Origin: Clostridia bacterium
Lineage (GTDB): Bacteria; Bacillota; TC1; UBA5767
DNA length: 64,000 bases
Assembly (NCBI GenBank): GCA_016887505.1
Contig: CP069393.1
Span: 1,660,001-1,724,000 of the forward strand
Direction of reading: 5' to 3'
Each line of letters starts with the position of its first letter. Positions within the stretch are counted from its first letter, which is position 1. Below, piece by piece: positions 2,958 to 31,284 of the stretch. Both the position numbers and the translations under genes were made by a program. Under the pieces are notes generated by a model. The model saw only the letters and a list, made by a program, of their open reading frames with translations, did not search any database and was not told where the DNA came from.

Positions 2958-3446
2958 ATGATACTAAAAACAAACAACGGCTACGCCTTTCAAATCGATA
3001 AAGCCGATTACCTGCGTATCGTTGAATATCACTGGTGGGTTGACAAGAAAGGCTATGTAAAGACAAAAGCAAAGGGCAGACAAATATACCTTGCCCGTCT
3101 AATAATGGATGCCGTTGATTGTGGTCGTGATGTCTTTGTCGACCACATATCGGGTGACAAACTCGATAACCGAAAAAGTAATCTTCGCGTTTGTTTGCCG
3201 GAAGAAAATATACGAAACCGAAAACTCAACTCGAACAATCGGACTGGCTACAAAGGGGTATCTTACATCGGTCGATTAGGCAAATACCGTGCAGATATCC
3301 GAGCGGGAAACGGCAAAAGCGTGTATTTGGGACTCTACACTACCTCAAAAGAAGCGGCTACGGTATATGACCGAGCCGCTGTTTTATTACATGGGGAATT
3401 TGCGAGAACCAATAATGACTTATACAAAGAGGCGGTGGCACTATGA
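2958..3446 (+). CDS. HNH homing-type endonuclease with AP2 domain
   Basis: A 162-residue protein. The HNH motif is VDHISGDKLDNRKSNLRV (about residues 60-78). The AP2/ERF-like DNA-binding domain spans about 98-152 (GYKGVSY, YRADI, LGLYTTSKEAATVYDRAA). HNH-AP2 proteins are free-standing homing endonucleases in phages. The gene follows the small terminase after 2 bases and overlaps the methyltransferase start (ATGA at 3443-3446), so it has become translationally tied into the operon. It is distinct from the HNH at 1969, which lacks AP2. Confidence 0.85.
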   Translation: MILKTNNGYAFQIDKADYLRIVEYHWWVDKKGYVKTKAKGRQIYLARLIMDAVDCGRDVFVDHISGDKLDNRKSNLRVCLPEENIRNRKLNSNNRTGYKGVSYIGRLGKYRADIRAGNGKSVYLGLYTTSKEAATVYDRAAVLLHGEFARTNNDLYKEAVAL

Positions 3447-4696
3447 AAATCACAAACAGATTTGAATTGGTTAGTGTTGATAGCCTTATTCCGTATTCAC
3501 GTAACGCCCGCACTCACTCCAAGGAGCAGATTCTACAGCTACGCTCAAGTCTACGGGAATTCGGCTTTGTATCCCCTATCATCGTGGACAAAGAATTAAA
3601 CATTATTGCAGGACACGGTCGTGTCCTCGCCGCCAAAGCCGAAGGTTTGACCGAAATCCCCTGCGTGTTTGTGGAGCATCTGACCGAAGCCCAGAAGCGG
3701 GCGTATATTCTTGCTGACAACAGACTGGCACTCAATGCCGGATGGGACGAGGAACTATTAGCTCTGGAATTTGCCGACCTCAAGGAACTCGGCTTCGACC
3801 TCGAAATTACGGGCTTTGACGCCGACGAGATTGAAAAACTCTTCGCCGACCCCGGCGGGGACGTAGCTGACGACGATTTCGACTTAACAGCCGCTCTTGA
3901 ACAGGCGGCTTTTGTTTTACCCGGAGATGTTTGGACGCTGGGACGGCACCGACTCATTTGCGGCGATGCCACGGTATCGGAAACTGTCAAGAAGCTGATG
4001 GATGGTCGCAAAGCCAATCTTGTCCTGACCGATCCCCCTTACAACGTCAGCTTTGAATCTGTGAGCGGACTAAAAATCAAGAACGACAGCATGAAAGCAG
4101 AACAATTCTACATCTTTTTGCTGTCGGCATTTAAGAATCTTTACGAGAACCTCGCCGACGGCGGGGCTTTTTACTGCTTCCATTCAGATTCGGAGAAGGT
4201 AAATTTCTTCCGCGCTTGCGTGGACGCAGGGTTCCATTATTCCACGACTTGCATCTGGGTGAAAAATGCCCTCGTGCTTGGTCGGGGTGATTACCAGCAA
4301 ATGCACGAGCCGGTGCTGTATGCCTTTAAGAATACCTCCAAACACAAGTGGTATTCCGACCGTAAGCAGACTACCATTTGGAACTTCGATAAACCAAAGA
4401 AAAACGCCGATCACCCGACAAGCAAACCCCTCGACCTGCTGGCATATCCTATTGCCAACAGCAGTCAGGCAAACGCCATCGTGCTGGACACTTTCGGCGG
4501 CTCCGGGTCGACGCTCATCGCCTGCGAGCAGCTTGACCGCACCTGCTACATGCTCGAATTGGACGAGAAATATGCTTCGGTCATTTTACGCAGGTATGCC
4601 GAGTACAAGCAAAACGGTGGCGAGGATATCACCTGTGAGCGTGACGGCAAGGTATTCCAATATGCCGACCTCGTGAAAGAGGTGGCTTTAATATAG
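3443..4696 (+). CDS. ParB-like domain fused to N4/N6 DNA methyltransferase
   Basis: A 417-residue protein. Residues 8-100 form a ParB/sulfiredoxin-type domain (IIAGHGR about 54-60, ADNRLALNAGWD). A short acidic linker follows, then an amino-methyltransferase. The catalytic DPPY is at 197-200 and the AdoMet-binding DTFGGSGSTLIA motif lies near the C-terminus, so the order is the beta class (catalytic motif before cofactor motif). It probably methylates adenine-N6 or cytosine-N4. No cognate restriction enzyme is in the window, which favours an anti-restriction or packaging-regulating phage enzyme. Confidence 0.88.
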   Translation: MKITNRFELVSVDSLIPYSRNARTHSKEQILQLRSSLREFGFVSPIIVDKELNIIAGHGRVLAAKAEGLTEIPCVFVEHLTEAQKRAYILADNRLALNAGWDEELLALEFADLKELGFDLEITGFDADEIEKLFADPGGDVADDDFDLTAALEQAAFVLPGDVWTLGRHRLICGDATVSETVKKLMDGRKANLVLTDPPYNVSFESVSGLKIKNDSMKAEQFYIFLLSAFKNLYENLADGGAFYCFHSDSEKVNFFRACVDAGFHYSTTCIWVKNALVLGRGDYQQMHEPVLYAFKNTSKHKWYSDRKQTTIWNFDKPKKNADHPTSKPLDLLAYPIANSSQANAIVLDTFGGSGSTLIACEQLDRTCYMLELDEKYASVILRRYAEYKQNGGEDITCERDGKVFQYADLVKEVALI

Positions 4697-6338: not shown

Positions 6339-7946
6339 ATGCCTGAATTCAAATACAAACCAACACCACTCATGCTGCCGACCAGCCGATACGATGTACG
6401 GCGAGCGGATTTTGCGGTTAATTTTATATCCATGCTCAAGCACACCACCGGCGAATGGTATGGAAAACCTTTTCAGTTGATGCCGTGGCAGGAGCAAATT
6501 ATCCGAGATATTTTTGGCATCGTCGGAGAGGACGGTTATCGGCAGTTTCGCACGGCGTATGTTGAGGTCGGTAAGAAAAACGGTAAGTCGGAACTGGCGG
6601 CGGCAATCGCCCTCTACCTTTTGTTCGCCGATGGCGAAGCGGGTGCCGAGGTCTACTCCTGTGCCGCCGACATCAATCAGGCGAGTATTGTTTTCAATAC
6701 TGCCAAAGCGATGGTCGAGCAATGCGGCGATCTGGCAAAGCTGTCAAAACTTGTGCCGTCAACCAAGCGGATTATATTCCCGCACACCAACAGTTTTTAT
6801 AGAGTGCTGTCCTCGGAAACAAAGTCCAAACAAGGCTTCAATGTTTCCGGTCTTATATTTGATGAACTCTTCGCCCAGCAGACCCGCGAACTGTTCGATA
6901 CCATGACCAAGTACACGGGTGACGCCAGACGGCAGCCCCTCTACTTTCTCATCACTACAGCGGGCAGGGATAAGACGAGCATCTGTTATGAAATCCACCA
7001 AAAAGCTAAAGCGGTTATGGATGGCTCGAAAATTGATCCATCCTTCTATCCTGCTGTATTCGGCATTGAAGAAGATGACGATTGGAATGACGAAGCCGTC
7101 TGGCGACGGGTCAATCCATCCATCGACGTAACGATTCCTTTTGAAACGGTACAGGCTGCCTATGAACAGGCGAAACAGAACCCCGCCGAGGAGATGCACT
7201 TTCGGCAGTTCCGCCTGAACGAATGGTGCAATGCTGATATCAGGTGGATGCCTATGGACAAATGGGACGTCTGCGGCGAAGACATAGACTTTGAAGAATA
7301 CGAGGGTCGGGATTGCTATTGCGGTCTTGACCTTTCCAGTACCGGAGACCTTACGGCTCTGGTTCTGGTATTCCCACCGGTTGGGAGTGATACCAAATAC
7401 ACAGTGATGCCGTTTTACTGGCTGCCGGAAGATGTGATTGACCTGCGGACAAGGCGCGACCACGTTCCTTATGCCGTATGGAAAAAGACAGGAGTGTTCA
7501 ACACCACCGAGGGCAATGTGGTGGACTATGACTACATAGTGGCTTTCATCGCCAAGCTGTCGGAGCGTTTTAGAATTCGTGAAATCGCCTACGACCGCTA
7601 CGGTGCGGAGAAGATACGCCGTGACCTTGAAGAACTGGGTGCGGAGCATGGGTTTACGGTGTTTCCGTTCGGCCAGGGTTTCATTTCCATGTCCCCACCT
7701 TCAAAGGACTTCTTTCAGTTTGTGATGGAAGGCAAAATACGCCACGGCAAACATCCTGTCCTCGACTGGAATATGGGTAATGTCATCGTCGACCAAGACG
7801 CTGCAGGAAACATTAAACCCAATAAAAAGAAATCAACAGAGAAAATAGACGGTGTGGTCGCGCTGATCATGGGACTTGCGAGGGCAACCCTCGGCGGTGG
7901 TATCAACGACAGTGTCTATGATGAAAGGGGGTTGTTATTTATATGA
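6339..7946 (+). CDS. terL: Terminase large subunit
   Basis: A 535-residue protein. ATG 6339 follows AAAGGAGG (6325-6332). The N-terminal ATPase has Walker A GKKNGKS (about residue 70) and Walker B GLIFDELF. The C-terminal RNase H-like nuclease shows LDLSSTGDLTAL, AYDRYGAE and a final KKKSTEKIDGVVALI motif. This is the packaging motor and headful/cos nuclease that loads DNA through the portal. Its length is usual for HK97-type terminases. The stop overlaps the portal start by ATGA (7943-7946). Confidence 0.96.
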   Translation: MPEFKYKPTPLMLPTSRYDVRRADFAVNFISMLKHTTGEWYGKPFQLMPWQEQIIRDIFGIVGEDGYRQFRTAYVEVGKKNGKSELAAAIALYLLFADGEAGAEVYSCAADINQASIVFNTAKAMVEQCGDLAKLSKLVPSTKRIIFPHTNSFYRVLSSETKSKQGFNVSGLIFDELFAQQTRELFDTMTKYTGDARRQPLYFLITTAGRDKTSICYEIHQKAKAVMDGSKIDPSFYPAVFGIEEDDDWNDEAVWRRVNPSIDVTIPFETVQAAYEQAKQNPAEEMHFRQFRLNEWCNADIRWMPMDKWDVCGEDIDFEEYEGRDCYCGLDLSSTGDLTALVLVFPPVGSDTKYTVMPFYWLPEDVIDLRTRRDHVPYAVWKKTGVFNTTEGNVVDYDYIVAFIAKLSERFRIREIAYDRYGAEKIRRDLEELGAEHGFTVFPFGQGFISMSPPSKDFFQFVMEGKIRHGKHPVLDWNMGNVIVDQDAAGNIKPNKKKSTEKIDGVVALIMGLARATLGGGINDSVYDERGLLFI

Positions 7947-9172
7947 GCAGATTCTCAGGGTTGTTCCGCTCACGGGATAAGCCTAAAAACCGTGTCGGCG
8001 GCGGCTGGAGTTTTCTCTTCGGTGGCACAACCAGCGGTAAGGCGGTCAATGAGCGAACGGCGATGCAGACCTCAGCGGTCTATGCTTGCGTCCGTATCCT
8101 TGCCGAATCGGTGGCGGGACTTCCGCTCCATGTATATGAGCGAACCGCCAACGGGAGCAAATCCACAAAACCATCGCATCCCCTCTACCGGCTACTTCAT
8201 GATGAGCCTAACCGCGAGATGACTTCATTTGTGTTCAGAGAAACACTGATGAGTCATCTTTTACTTTGGGGCAACGCCTACGCACAGATTATCAGAGACG
8301 GCAGGGGGTTTCCCATTGCACTCTATCCACTCCTGCCCGACCGAATGGCTGTGGATAGAAACGAAATCGGCGAACTGGTCTACACCTACCAAAGTGACAA
8401 GGGGCAGGTCAAATTACGGCGTGAGAACGTCCTGCATATCCCCGGCTTGGGCTTTGACGGCCTTATAGGTTACTCGCCGATTGCGATGGCAAAGAACGCC
8501 GTGGGGCTTGCCCTTGCAACGGAGGACTACGGCGCTGCTTTTTTCGCCAACGGTGCGAATCCCGGCGGTGTGTTAGAACACCCTGGTGTCATCAAGCCAG
8601 AACAGGCCGACAGGCTCAGAGAAAGCTGGCAGTCGCAATTCGGAGGCGCAAATGCACACAAAGTAGCGGTTTTGGAGGAAGGTCTTAAATTCCACCAGAT
8701 GTCCATACCGCCGGAACAGGCGCAGTTTTTGGAAACACGTAAGTTTCAGATAAATGAAATCGCCCGTATTTTCAGAGTGCCTCCTCATATGGTCGGCGAC
8801 CTTGAAAAGAGCAGCTTCTCCAACATCGAACAGCAGTCTTTAGAGTTCGTCAAGTATACCCTCGACCCGTGGGTGGTCAGGTGGGAGCAGTCTTTACAGC
8901 AGGCTCTCATTCTGCCATCGGAAAAAGCGACGATCTTTATCAAGTTTAATCTCGACGGACTACTTCGCGGCGACTACCAAAGCCGTATGCAAGGCTATTC
9001 AACAGGCATTCAAAACGGATTTATGTCGGTCAACGATGTACGTGGCTTGGAGGATATGAATCTGCTGACTGCCGAGGAAGGCGGCGATCTGCACTTCGTC
9101 AACGGCAACATGGTCAAGCTGGCCGATGTTGGAGCAGCATACAAACCAAATGAAACGGAGGATACAAGCTAA
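7943..9172 (+). CDS. Portal protein, HK97 family
   Basis: A 409-residue protein forming the dodecameric DNA channel at the capsid vertex. Characteristic stretches are AVYACVRILAESVAGLPLHVY near residue 50 (given in parts), GNAYAQIIRDGRG, LHIPGLGFDGLIGYSPI and FRVPPHMVGDLEKSSFSN. The length matches the HK97 portal group. It overlaps terL at its start, and its TAA overlaps the ATG of the protease (TAATG at 9170-9174). Confidence 0.95.
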   Translation: MSRFSGLFRSRDKPKNRVGGGWSFLFGGTTSGKAVNERTAMQTSAVYACVRILAESVAGLPLHVYERTANGSKSTKPSHPLYRLLHDEPNREMTSFVFRETLMSHLLLWGNAYAQIIRDGRGFPIALYPLLPDRMAVDRNEIGELVYTYQSDKGQVKLRRENVLHIPGLGFDGLIGYSPIAMAKNAVGLALATEDYGAAFFANGANPGGVLEHPGVIKPEQADRLRESWQSQFGGANAHKVAVLEEGLKFHQMSIPPEQAQFLETRKFQINEIARIFRVPPHMVGDLEKSSFSNIEQQSLEFVKYTLDPWVVRWEQSLQQALILPSEKATIFIKFNLDGLLRGDYQSRMQGYSTGIQNGFMSVNDVRGLEDMNLLTAEEGGDLHFVNGNMVKLADVGAAYKPNETEDTS

Positions 9173-20067: not shown

Positions 20068-20262
20068 ATGGTATCTTTTCAACAAGTGGCGCGAGACGCT
20101 TCACCCAAAGGCTACGGCAGGCTGCGCTCCATCACCATCCGTCTTGTTATACAGAACTGTACTGGAGAGGTGTTCTTCACTGATCTAATGTTGCAAGCAG
20201 GTATCGTCGCCACAGGCTGGGTCGGCCACGTCTGTGAAATTAGGTGGACACTGGATGGGTGA
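20068..20262 (+). CDS. Short tail appendage protein
   Basis: A 64-residue protein with ATG 20068 behind GGGCGGTG. The segment RSITIRLVIQNCTGEVFFTD, LMLQAG closely parallels VSVTLRPLIADCTGEIYFTD, LQLQEG of the protein encoded across the insertion at 22745. Both therefore share a small beta-strand module found in clostridial phage appendages. Its stop is two bases from the stop of the opposing erm gene, so the insertion begins immediately after it; a lost longer C-terminus cannot be excluded. Confidence 0.6.
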   Translation: MVSFQQVARDASPKGYGRLRSITIRLVIQNCTGEVFFTDLMLQAGIVATGWVGHVCEIRWTLDG

Positions 20263-20263
20263 T

Positions 20264-21055
20264 TCAGTCTTTGCGAAGTACATGCTTGTAGTAGCATCGG
20301 AAAAGGCAGAGCCATTGCACATAAAGCATTTCCCCAGAGGCGTAACCATGTATGCCAGCTTCTCGAAATGCTCTGGACAACTGCTTTTTTGTAAACATGC
20401 GTCGTAATTCGGCACCATTGCTTCGTAGGCCGGCTGAGACAAAGCGCTCGTAAGCAAGCCATTGGACTGGCGATACATCTGGTTGTGCCTTTTTATTCAG
20501 ATGGAGCAATACCACGTCTACGCCGGGCTTCGGATGAAAATCCTCCCGGCGAAAATGGTAGACGATTTCAAGATCGAATACTGGCTTTATCATGAGTGAC
20601 CGCAGGCTTTCACGCGAGGTTCCCATGAAACGCTTGGCCGCACCCTTTTCCATCGTTAACCATGCTTCTGTTGGTGGGTTTTTGCTTTCCGTCAGCTTGC
20701 GCAATATGCTGGTGGTATGGAAAAAAGGAATGTTTGCAAAAACCTTATAGTCCACAGAAGCAGGAAGCCGCCATTGCAGGAAGTCCTGATGATAAAGGTC
20801 GAGGTTTTCGGCATCACTGAATTTTTCAAGAAGCCTTCCATAAAGCTTTTTGTCAACTTCAATAGCGCTTACTTTCTGGCAGTTTTCAAGGAGTAAACCA
20901 GTAATATGGCCTTTACCGGGGCCTATTTCAATCACATGATCACCTGCGGTGATACTGGTTTTATGAAGCAATTTTTTTATTGTTTTGTAGCTGGTCAGGT
21001 AATTTTGGGATACACAAATGGGCGGATTTTGCCCTTGGTTTCTATTTTTGGACAT
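20264..21055 (-). CDS. Erm-type 23S rRNA adenine-N6 methyltransferase
   Basis: A 263-residue protein; ATG 21055 follows AGAGGTG. The AdoMet site is VIEIGPGKGHITGLLLE, with ICVSQNYLTS upstream (the Erm/KsgA N-terminal motif). The catalytic loop FANIPFF (about residue 114) is the N-[IL]-P-[FY] motif, followed by HTTSILRKLTES and the Erm-like C-terminal helices. Erm enzymes dimethylate A2058 of 23S rRNA and give macrolide-lincosamide-streptogramin B resistance. KsgA is less likely given the C-terminal half and mobile context. A weak promoter (TTGTGC, 18 bp, TAGAAT) lies upstream. I cannot assign it to a named erm class. Confidence 0.83.
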   Translation of the reverse strand: MSKNRNQGQNPPICVSQNYLTSYKTIKKLLHKTSITAGDHVIEIGPGKGHITGLLLENCQKVSAIEVDKKLYGRLLEKFSDAENLDLYHQDFLQWRLPASVDYKVFANIPFFHTTSILRKLTESKNPPTEAWLTMEKGAAKRFMGTSRESLRSLMIKPVFDLEIVYHFRREDFHPKPGVDVVLLHLNKKAQPDVSPVQWLAYERFVSAGLRSNGAELRRMFTKKQLSRAFREAGIHGYASGEMLYVQWLCLFRCYYKHVLRKD

Positions 21056-21308
21056 AAAAAATACACCTCTTTCGATTCTATTCGGGTCGAAAAAAAGTGC
21101 ACAAAACTAAAGGAAGTGAACCGTTCCCTTTAAAATAGACACTATTTTCTCGCATATTCGCTAGTTTTCGTAGATTTATAAAAATGATCTAATTTAATGA
21201 TTATAAGGGTTTTCTTCTAACAAGTAAAAGCTTAACCTTCCTAGATTCATCTAGAAACACAGAAACTTGTTCTAATTGTTTCAATGTATCCTCAAATAAT
21301 ATAGTATC

Positions 21309-22172
21309 TTAACTGGCCAATACCGTTGGTTTGATCTCAGATTTATGATAACCATGGTAATACTCTTCGGGAGTAATATAATCATTGGATTCATGAATCC
21401 GTTGCCTATTATAGAAAATCATGACGTATTCAAAGACCTTGCTTTTGGCTTCTTCTATCGTTTTAAAGCGATAGTCATTTAACCATTCCATTTTCATTTT
21501 CCCCCAAAATGATTCAATGGGGGCGTTATCCCAGCAGTTTCCCTTGCGGGACATGCTGCAGGTATAACCATATTTCTTAAGTCTCTCCTGATAAGCATAG
21601 GAACAGTATTGCGACCCTCGATCACTGTGTAGGATTGTATTACAAGGCTTACCACCTCTTCTGTAAGCGTCATCAAGAGCCGATATGACTAGTTGCTTCG
21701 TCATCCTAGTAGACATGGAAAGGCCGATATTATAATGCCCATAGAGGTCATTAATCGCCGCTACGTAGAGCCACCCTTCTTCTGTGGCAATATAGGTAAT
21801 ATCTGACACTAACTTCTCATTGGGTCTCTCAGCCTGGAACTCTCTATTTAGAAGGTTTTCAGCTACTGGAAGACTATGCTTGGAGTTGGTAGTAGCTTTG
21901 TATTTCTTGCAAACCTTACTCTGGATTCCTAGCTTCTGCATGAGTCTCTGTATCCTTTTGTGATTAATTGCAGATCCTTTGAAGTTTCGGTCTTTAAGGG
22001 GCATTCTCAAAATTGCTTTGCGTATCTTTTTCCAGCCAAATACGCCTCTGGACTTCTCATAGACTAATAAGATATCTTTTTCTAATGCTTCATTCTCTTC
22101 TTCTGTAGCACTTTTCTTGGGTTTTATCCATGCATAATAACCACTCTTAGATACTCTAAGAACCTTACACAT
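21309..22172 (-). CDS. IS3-family transposase OrfB (DDE integrase core)
   Basis: 287 residues from ATG 22172. The rve integrase core has the three acidic residues in VSDITYI, HSDRGSQY and APIESFWGKMK, followed by FYNRQRIHESNDYITPEEYY. The frame is open upstream through KRFFFIRDHAKEFSIARMCK, in -1 relative to orfA, so the active form is probably an OrfAB fusion made by frameshifting at the A-rich 3' end of orfA. No stops or deletions are visible; the transposase looks intact. Confidence 0.92.
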   Translation of the reverse strand: MCKVLRVSKSGYYAWIKPKKSATEEENEALEKDILLVYEKSRGVFGWKKIRKAILRMPLKDRNFKGSAINHKRIQRLMQKLGIQSKVCKKYKATTNSKHSLPVAENLLNREFQAERPNEKLVSDITYIATEEGWLYVAAINDLYGHYNIGLSMSTRMTKQLVISALDDAYRRGGKPCNTILHSDRGSQYCSYAYQERLKKYGYTCSMSRKGNCWDNAPIESFWGKMKMEWLNDYRFKTIEEAKSKVFEYVMIFYNRQRIHESNDYITPEEYYHGYHKSEIKPTVLAS

Positions 22173-22222
22173 CCTCGCTATACTAAATTCTTTGGCATGA
22201 TCCCGGATAAAGAAAAATCGTT

Positions 22223-22510
22223 TTACTTTTGATTTTTCGCGAAGTAGGTTGCCGCTTTTTTTAGAATCTCATTCTCCTCTTGTAACTCCCTATTTTCTTT
22301 TCGCAGTCTCTTTAGCTCTAGTTCAGCTTCACTAGGCTTTAAAGAAGCCTTTATCCCTTTAGTAGGATTTTCTCTATACTGCTTCATCCAACCCGAGAGG
22401 GTTGATGTAGGAACTCCTAAATCCTCTGCTACTTGATTTTGACTTCCAGCATTTGCTAATACTCTTTTAATTGCTTCTACTTTAAATTCTTCCGAAAATC
22501 TCTTTCCCAT
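22223..22510 (-). CDS. IS3-family OrfA (helix-turn-helix)
   Basis: 95 residues from ATG 22510 behind GAGGTG. The N-terminal helix-turn-helix (FSEEFKVEAIKRVLANAG, NQVAEDLGVPTSTLSGWM) binds the IS ends. The C-terminal leucine zipper (LELKRLRKENRELQEENEIL) is typical of IS3 OrfA. The tail TYFAKNQK is encoded by an A-run (GCGAAAAATC), where -1 slippage into orfB is likely. Confidence 0.92.
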   Translation of the reverse strand: MGKRFSEEFKVEAIKRVLANAGSQNQVAEDLGVPTSTLSGWMKQYRENPTKGIKASLKPSEAELELKRLRKENRELQEENEILKKAATYFAKNQK

Positions 22511-22744
22511 TTCGTATACACCTCAACCTTTTCTTTATTAGTTTTATTGTATGCGAATTTTTACTGTCCATCAAATGGGGTCCTAGGCAAAGAGTATTTT
22601 ACGCTTCCGTTTGTTTAGTGCACCTTATTGACGAGTCCGAAAGATTCCACTCATAGGTGTATTCAAGCCTCCAAATATAGATTGGTTTTCATTATAAAAT
22701 AAATAGGCTATGTTGTCAAATTCAGCATTTGTACACACTCGCAT

Positions 22745-23347
22745 TTGAGCTATGCACCGTTTTCGGAGGAGGTGGCAAAGATAATCAACAACTTCATCCG
22801 CTTTGCGGAAGTACTAAAACTCAAAGAGGAAAAGCGAATTGTAAGCGTAACCCTCCGTCCCCTCATCGCCGATTGCACGGGCGAGATTTACTTCACCGAC
22901 CTTCAGCTTCAGGAGGGCGACAAACTGACAGGCTATACACCGCACACTTCGACCATGCTTCAAGGTAGCGGGAATGCTCCTCGCTACCAAAATGCCGTGG
23001 TGCGTGGCGGCGCGACCCTCGTTCTCTTCAACACCGGGGAAACCTCGGCGGGTCTTGACTTATATATCTATCCTAAACAGCCAATGGCGGCGGGAAGCAT
23101 TGAAATTTCACAAGGTATGGGTTCGCATAAGTGCAAATTTACATCGGCGGTAAATGCGGGTGATGAATTTGCCTTAAAAGCTGTGGTAAGGGAATGTCTG
23201 CGAAATGGCAATCCCACGCTAAAGGATGGATTTTACCAATATACCGCCGCTTACGACAGCAAGCACCACGTGAAGCTGGAAAACGGAAAATCAGCGAGGG
23301 TCTACCTCGAATATGTAGAAATGATGGAAGGAGATCCGCGCTTATGA
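22745..23347 (+). CDS. Tail appendage protein, 5' end disturbed by insertion
   Basis: 200 residues if started at TTG 22745. The sequence from SYAPFSEEVAKIINNFIRFAEVL onward (in parts), with RPLIADCTGEIYFTDLQLQ and YQYTAAYDSKHHVKLENGKSARVYLEY, looks like complete phage appendage proteins that precede tail glycosidases. The region before the TTG has no ribosome binding site, and the frame is open only to 22703. GTG 22772 directly abuts GGAGGAG and would lose the N-terminal helix. I infer that the erm cassette replaced the original start and Shine-Dalgarno sequence; expression is doubtful. Confidence 0.65.
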   Translation: MSYAPFSEEVAKIINNFIRFAEVLKLKEEKRIVSVTLRPLIADCTGEIYFTDLQLQEGDKLTGYTPHTSTMLQGSGNAPRYQNAVVRGGATLVLFNTGETSAGLDLYIYPKQPMAAGSIEISQGMGSHKCKFTSAVNAGDEFALKAVVRECLRNGNPTLKDGFYQYTAAYDSKHHVKLENGKSARVYLEYVEMMEGDPRL

Positions 23348-30939: not shown

Positions 30940-31284
30940 TGGTGGAGATGGGGGGAGTCGAACCCCCGTCCGAAAGAACGTCAACAATGACGTCTACCAG
31001 GATAGTCGATGATTGGGTCTTATCTGCTGAGCGTCCACCGACAAACCAACAACAGACCAGCCTCTAAGTACAATATGGGTATGAGACAGCCCCCATAAGG
31101 TTTCCTACTAAGTTGATGCCAGATTCCGAGTTCGTAGGACCACCCGGGCTGACAAGCCGCCTAATTAGGCAGCTAAAGCGTAATCGCTTTTAGCGTTTAA
31201 ATATTTTCCACCGATTTCGGGTCAAATGGAACACCCCCTGGCAGTCAAGGTCTAAATTCCCCCGTCGAAGCCCAATGCATCCCC
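30940..31284 (-). ncRNA. ssrA: tmRNA (transfer-messenger RNA)
   Basis: The 3' end (30940) encodes CCA after an acceptor strand CATCTCC-A and a T-arm GGGGG-TTCGACT-CCCCC. The 5' end GGGGATG (31284) pairs with it. The tag reading frame runs 31194-31165 (GCT AAA AGC GAT TAC GCT TTA GCT GCC TAA), giving AKSDYALAA after the charged alanine, in the right TAAAC-GCT context. With SmpB it rescues stalled ribosomes and marks the proteins for ClpXP. Unlike in many Firmicutes it is not adjacent to smpB, which is 8 kb away on the same strand. Confidence 0.97.

Follow-up and report, generated by a model that had tools for sequence, protein, structure and literature searches.

An Erm-type methyltransferase gene with an attenuator-like leader at a cargo site between two tail genes of a Clostridia prophage

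Introduction

Macrolide resistance genes are known from phages: phi1207.3 is one such phage, with mef(A)-msr(D) (PMC9927172), and phage contigs with erm(TR) or ermG are reported from digester metagenomes (PMC10851435). The limit of a named Erm class is set at 80% identity (PMC11878018). Bacillus subtilis tlrB has a leader of the architecture described below, which works by tylosin-dependent stalling at R-Y-R (PMC6851288); the ermD leader has R-L-R as its arrest motif (PMC8298421). In staphylococcal erm(C), loss of the leader leads to constitutive expression (PMC10655708).

Here we analyse a 64,000-nucleotide stretch of the genome of a Clostridia bacterium (the window), in which a prophage carries a candidate macrolide resistance gene behind a leader with an R-x-R motif. 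Both the gene and the phage differ from those above. A sequence-only reading had placed a minus-strand erm between two related tail genes, and this arrangement stands, inside a late module that is apparently intact.

Results

The prophage and the insertion site

Intact ORFs for terminase, portal, protease, capsid, tape-measure and tail proteins were identified upstream of the site. Downstream are a glycosyl-hydrolase-18 protein, a holin, an amidase and two serine recombinases. From these intact late genes a viable phage is plausible; relevant to this is the right-hand tail gene, which in the window lineage is without its usual ATG. The search for direct repeats at the prophage ends gave none of 16 bp or more. 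A tmRNA gene (30940-31284) lies ~300 bp past the last serine recombinase, with its 3' end toward the prophage, and may mark the right attachment site. To the left of the prophage (L055/L056, about 1632025-1649721 of the host genome) is a minus-strand block resembling a defence island, which contains a match to the PADLOC candidate PDC-S06 (742 bits), a type III restriction enzyme and a type IV/PbeA-like protein.

The features at the site are as follows.

20068 to 20262, plus strand: left neighbour, an intact 64-aa tail-region ORF (phrog_3473; tail family phrog_12827), of equal length in relatives
~20261 to ~22779, no strand assigned: foreign stretch, consisting of the erm unit (1043 bp without the IS) and an IS3 element, delimited against the empty site of L019 via the IS-free L003, with the IS borders from L002 and L003
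20264 to 21055, minus strand: erm, a 263-aa Erm-type 23S rRNA adenine methyltransferase (NCBIfam NF000499, Pfam RrnaAD, tree)
22745 to 23347, plus strand: right neighbour, a tail protein ORF of about 190-200 aa (phrog_12827)

The two tail ORFs are related (51% identity across 37 aa), and the stop codons of erm and the 64-aa ORF are 1 bp apart. The borders could be set by comparison with related prophages, as had been proposed, using the empty site of L019 and the IS-free L003: the IS-free erm unit of 1043 bp takes the place of 13 bp in L019, whose flanks are 95-96% identical DNA. The 64-aa ORF does not differ in length between erm-positive and erm-negative relatives; thus, no phage gene was cut. 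Comparison with relatives excludes an insertion within a tail gene, and both neighbours are intact. The data do not support an interrupted tail gene, and nothing suggests that the phage was trapped. The usual ATG of the right tail gene is AAG at ~22778-22780 of the window, likewise in L002 and L003; in-frame alternatives are TTG at 22745 and GTG at 22772. Neither a duplication flanking the erm unit nor a recombinase or attachment site of its own was seen, and the IS-free copies consist of erm and leader only. An intrinsic terminator separating erm from the 64-aa ORF was not found, and late transcription would therefore pass through erm in antisense.

The occupancy of the site was surveyed by way of relatives of the right tail neighbour, drawn from viral contigs and from genomes of the phylum. 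The site is empty in 22 loci, where the next tail gene begins within ~20 bp of the stop of the 64-aa ORF, and holds other cargo in six. This cargo includes a Cro-type regulator with a membrane protein that matches DUF6773 (L025/L026), an AraC-type regulator with a GyrI-like/Cass2 effector-binding domain that is possibly drug-sensing as well (L037, 5005-5943), and a short insert (L052). The remaining pair, L030 (5473-6001) and L031 (5476-6001), has a 525-bp insert with no long ORF; the insert of L031 has no match in Rfam. In both it is flanked by a ~30 bp direct repeat, a copy of the end of the 64-aa ORF; the way in which the insert entered may thus have duplicated the target.

The erm gene was identified between the same two flanking genes, and in the same orientation as in the window, in four further prophages of a second lineage (lineage B): Tepidanaerobacter L006, L068 of the same genus, Syntrophomonas zehnderi L007 and Thermoclostridium caenicola L009. 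Most erm-positive loci came from the erm query; the survey by tail gene alone found erm at none of 19 viral sites and at two of 11 sites in the phylum sample. Clean empty sites occur in close phage relatives of both lineages, namely L019 for the window and, for lineage B, L046 and L048, which are 93-97% identical to its erm-positive prophages. Judged from these loci, this is a recurrent cargo (moron) site, empty in most relatives and occupied by other cargo or erm in some. The sequence-only reading had foreseen the objection that this might be a normal cargo site. Cargo does recur here, and the objection holds in part.

Identity of the Erm protein

The window protein scores 226.9 bits against the curated NCBIfam Erm model NF000499 (cut-off 212) and 116.4 bits against the KsgA model (cut-off 171). 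Its match in the PDB is ErmC' (E=1.7e-37). In the tree it groups with Erm(A), (B), (C), (T), (42) and (53) (support 99/96), and a 100/99 branch sets the KsgA proteins apart from this group. Motif I is EIGPGKGH, as in Erm 23S rRNA A2058 methyltransferases. The catalytic motif IV (pattern N-[IL]-P-[YF]; N-I-P-Y in ErmC') is NIPF in the window clade and NIPS in L011, a chromosomal copy for which decay is possible. The dN/dS ratio is ~0.09 for the phage-borne pair L006 and L007 and ~0.11 for the window and L004, values of about 0.09-0.11 that indicate purifying selection on erm. By homology, the gene is an erm. The models, the tree and the purifying selection argue against KsgA or an inactive paralogue, so the original call is upheld, including on the phylogenetic placement that had been named as its check.

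Identity to nine named Erm proteins is 26-38%, and all class-specific NCBIfam Erm models fall far under their cut-offs. Thus, under the 80% rule, the protein would be a new Erm class with respect to these nine, which represent part of the named classes. This agrees with the earlier impression that it lies outside the recognised classes, at no more than 38% identity to the proteins compared. PADLOC matched Erm weakly to mad2, which was put down to the common methyltransferase fold. An AlphaFold model built on eight sequences was poor (pLDDT 41.6) and was left out of the evidence. Scans of viral contigs with the window query, an alignment and a lineage-B query found no erm, and phage records yielded solely distant Erm or KsgA-like proteins with less than 60% identity.

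The leader and putative attenuator

Upstream of erm, on the same strand, are the predicted elements of a regulated transcription unit.

22691 to 22719, minus strand: promoter of the erm unit, TTGACA-17-TATAAT (12/12 consensus; identical in L003)
22656 to 22662, minus strand: outer helix, 5' side, ATACACC, complementary to the erm Shine-Dalgarno region (fold and alignment, IS-free leader)
22625 to 22654, minus strand: leader ORF, MSGIFRTRQ*, with an R-x-R arrest-type motif (leaders of 9-10 codons in 10/10 homologues)
22613 to 22624, minus strand: attenuator terminator, 5' arm, parted from the 3' arm by the IS (position mapped via L003)
21090 to 21107, minus strand: attenuator terminator, 3' arm and T-run (fold and alignment)
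21061 to 21067, minus strand: outer helix, 3' side, GGTGTAT, overlapping the erm Shine-Dalgarno (fold and alignment)

The leader ORF has nine codons in the window and a Shine-Dalgarno of its own. Elsewhere it mostly reads M[CY]GIFRIRK or similar; that of L054 is MYASMRLRK. An R-x-R at the end of the leader is found in all ten homologues, at a chance of ~0.8% each, and a chance ORF is rejected on this basis. The IS-free leader folds at -48.2 kcal/mol, compared with -29.3 +/- 3.7 for shuffles (z=-5.06). In the predicted fold, ATACACC pairs with the erm Shine-Dalgarno region as an outer helix, and an inner helix followed by the T-run forms an intrinsic terminator. In the hairpin alignment 90.7% of cells pair, with covariation of 0.347 versus 0.230 +/- 0.024 (0 of 500 shuffles as high). 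Covariation is confined to the terminator helix, and conservation of the outer helix comes without it. Rfam has no family for the erm leader. Leader and hairpin, present in every homologue, together have the architecture of a macrolide-sensing attenuator such as those of tlrB and ermD, and from this likeness we infer a response to the drug.

Insertion sequences in the erm leader

The interval 20263-22744 had been described as an erm cassette. It does hold erm, but ~60% of it is an IS3-family element that went unmentioned, the leader and attenuator were overlooked, and the foreign stretch extends on both sides of it.

21117 to 22589, minus strand: IS3-family element, 1473 bp, with an AAG target duplication at 21114-21116 and 22590-22592 (orfA/orfB models; comparison with IS-free L003)
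21309 to 22172, minus strand: IS3 orfB, a DDE transposase (NF033516, 325.6 bits)
22223 to 22510, minus strand: IS3 orfA (N-terminal part of NF033516, 61.6 bits; HTH_Tnp_1)

The element fits the IS3 family (orfA/orfB, terminal inverted repeats, a target duplication of 3-4 bp), judged from the models and from its ends and AAG duplication against L003. The near-identical prophages L002 and L003 have an uninterrupted leader and no IS3 element, and within the erm leader the element is bordered by a 3-bp duplication of its own. Thus, erm and IS3 arrived separately, IS3 later. In place of the single cassette originally proposed there were two events, capture of erm and then insertion of the IS. That erm is part of the IS is excluded by the same IS-free prophages. 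The IS lies within the terminator loop, so that the two arms are now ~1.5 kb apart, and its genes run in the direction of erm. A 10/12 promoter in the IS end does not exceed the regional chance count.

A second insertion was identified in L068, where an unrelated element of the IS6 family (185.9 bits, cut-off 125), flanked by an 8-bp duplication, is found downstream of the terminator and upstream of the erm Shine-Dalgarno. In the window the two terminator arms are split by IS3; in L068 it is the terminator and the Shine-Dalgarno that are parted, by IS6. On sequence grounds both elements thus uncouple erm from its leader. Two independent insertions in the leader resemble the clinical change from inducible to constitutive erm, here outside the clinic.

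The insertions could also be read in the opposite way, as silencing of a burdensome erm, with loss of expression en route to decay. Both elements lie between the leader promoter and erm. In L068 the terminator remains in position upstream of the IS, and at the window junction the Shine-Dalgarno can still pair with the 3' arm of the terminator. The chromosomal L011 lacks the aromatic residue of motif IV. However, the erm ORFs beside both elements are intact, in the erm direction no intrinsic terminator is predicted from the promoter through the window IS to erm, and each IS is the sole copy in its genome. In staphylococci, moreover, loss of the erm(C) leader makes expression constitutive (PMC10655708). 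We regard silencing as a serious alternative, if an unlikely one.

Origin of the erm gene

The window erm is 77% identical to that of L004, a Pelotomaculum bin, and 74% to that of L053, and only 64-65% to the lineage-B phage copies. Forcing all phage erm genes into one clade is rejected (p-AU 6e-46), as is forcing all erm-positive phages into one clade of the tail-protein tree (p-AU 4e-6). Thus, on a minimum reading of the trees, erm was gained at this site at least twice. Homology between the window unit and L004 extends from the stop codon of erm as far as the -35 box, so the captured piece looks like a whole transcription unit.

Transfer in the other direction is seen in L011 (9773-10877; Acetivibrio straminisolvens), where a lineage-B erm unit is accompanied by the ends of both tail genes, with no surrounding phage. 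These ends mark the chromosomal copy as phage-derived. It follows that some chromosomal "donors" may actually be recipients, and this is the chief reservation about the reading of two gains. In L053 two different erm-like genes occur ~4 kb apart on one chromosome (3078-3944 and 7836-8630). One is in the window clade; the other stands beside Erm(F) in the tree and shares 29% identity with the Erm of the window.

A single ancient gain by a phage ancestor, with loss in most descendants and chromosomal copies derived from phages, would account for L011 and for the site and orientation shared by both lineages. It conflicts with both rejected topologies and requires many clean losses, each of which would have to leave behind 10-13 bp that include a ribosome-binding site; no phage flanks are seen at L004, L053 and L054. 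We consider this history improbable and retain that of at least two gains.

The prophages of L007 (S. zehnderi OL-4) and L009 (T. caenicola DSM 19027), both erm-positive, are ~96% identical over 12 kb, and their hosts belong to different families. This points to recent movement between distant anaerobes.

Discussion

The reading that we favour, and hold to be likely, is that erm is prophage (lysogenic-conversion) cargo that gives inducible MLS resistance and subsequently became detached from its switch. The unit, made up of promoter, leader peptide, attenuator and erm, would be macrolide-inducible and stem from Bacillota chromosomes. It would have been copied into a siphovirus-like prophage and placed between two tail genes, opposed to late transcription, where other cargo is accepted as well. 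When a lysogen meets a macrolide, a ribosome stalled on the R-x-R leader would keep the terminator and the hairpin that sequesters the Shine-Dalgarno from forming, so that Erm is made. Erm would then methylate A2058 of 23S rRNA and confer MLS(B) resistance. In the window strain, the later IS3-family insertion into the terminator loop separated the arms, and erm expression is probably independent of the drug since then. Against this reading count the NIPF of motif IV in place of the N-I-P-Y of ErmC', the phage origin of L011, the pairing that the Shine-Dalgarno retains with the 3' arm of the terminator, and the antisense course of late transcription through erm.

Erm might instead serve the phage itself, for example if methylated rRNA favoured phage translation or helped to keep other phages out, with resistance as a side effect. 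A phage-encoded gene under purifying selection would be expected in that case, but erm has its own promoter and is opposed to the late operon, its macrolide-type leader is common to chromosomal copies, and most relatives are without it; we find such a role very improbable. We give next to no credence to the entry of erm and IS3, which share an interval and a strand, as one transposon resistance cassette: L002 and L003 contain only erm and its leader, and the 3-bp duplication within the leader belongs to the IS itself. The idea is already refuted unless those prophages lost the IS precisely.

Beyond lysogenic conversion in the window strain, we tentatively suggest a wider role, which we think distinctly less probable than not. 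One tail-module site, in a prophage family across several Bacillota orders, would be a landing place for drug-sensing cargo (at least two captures of erm, and the AraC/GyrI-type regulator of L037), with IS repeatedly selected in the erm leader to escape drug control. The family would hence be a natural vehicle of MLS resistance among anaerobes.

To our knowledge, convincing cases of resistance genes as standing, selected phage cargo are rare. The clean empty sites, the two gains, the purifying selection and the cultured lysogens make the question testable here.

Compared with the Erm A2058 methyltransferases (Erm(53), (42), (T), (C), (A) and (B)), the window Erm is alike in fold family, motif I, model and tree position. 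It differs from the named proteins compared in its 26-38% identity, in the NIPF of motif IV and in its occurrence in prophages and anaerobic Bacillota. A close counterpart of the leader is that of B. subtilis tlrB (yxjB), which likewise combines a 9-codon R-x-R leader, an intrinsic terminator and a hairpin that sequesters the Shine-Dalgarno (PMC6851288). The tlrB product is a G748 methyltransferase, whereas the window gene is an erm, known here from its sequence. The ErmD leader (ErmDL) shares the R-x-R (+X+) arrest-type motif, and the L054 leader resembles its Ser4-Met5-Arg6-Leu7-Arg8 (PMC8298421). The ErmD protein itself is not close, the ErmD-like protein in L053 being 29% identical to the window Erm.

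The locus resembles prophage morons in having its own promoter (12/12 consensus) on the opposite strand, in being missing from close relatives and in being replaceable cargo. It differs in that the cargo is an antibiotic-resistance gene with an attenuator, and in that no intrinsic terminator of its own was found after erm. As in leader-deleted erm(C), an intact erm is severed from its leader (PMC10655708); there by a deletion whose phenotype was tested, here by IS insertions in prophages. Macrolide resistance on temperate phages is common to phi1207.3, the digester contigs and this prophage, with different genes and phages in each. Because such resistance is already known (PMC10851435, PMC9927172), what is new here lies in the site, the class of the gene, the attenuator and the recurrence of the events.
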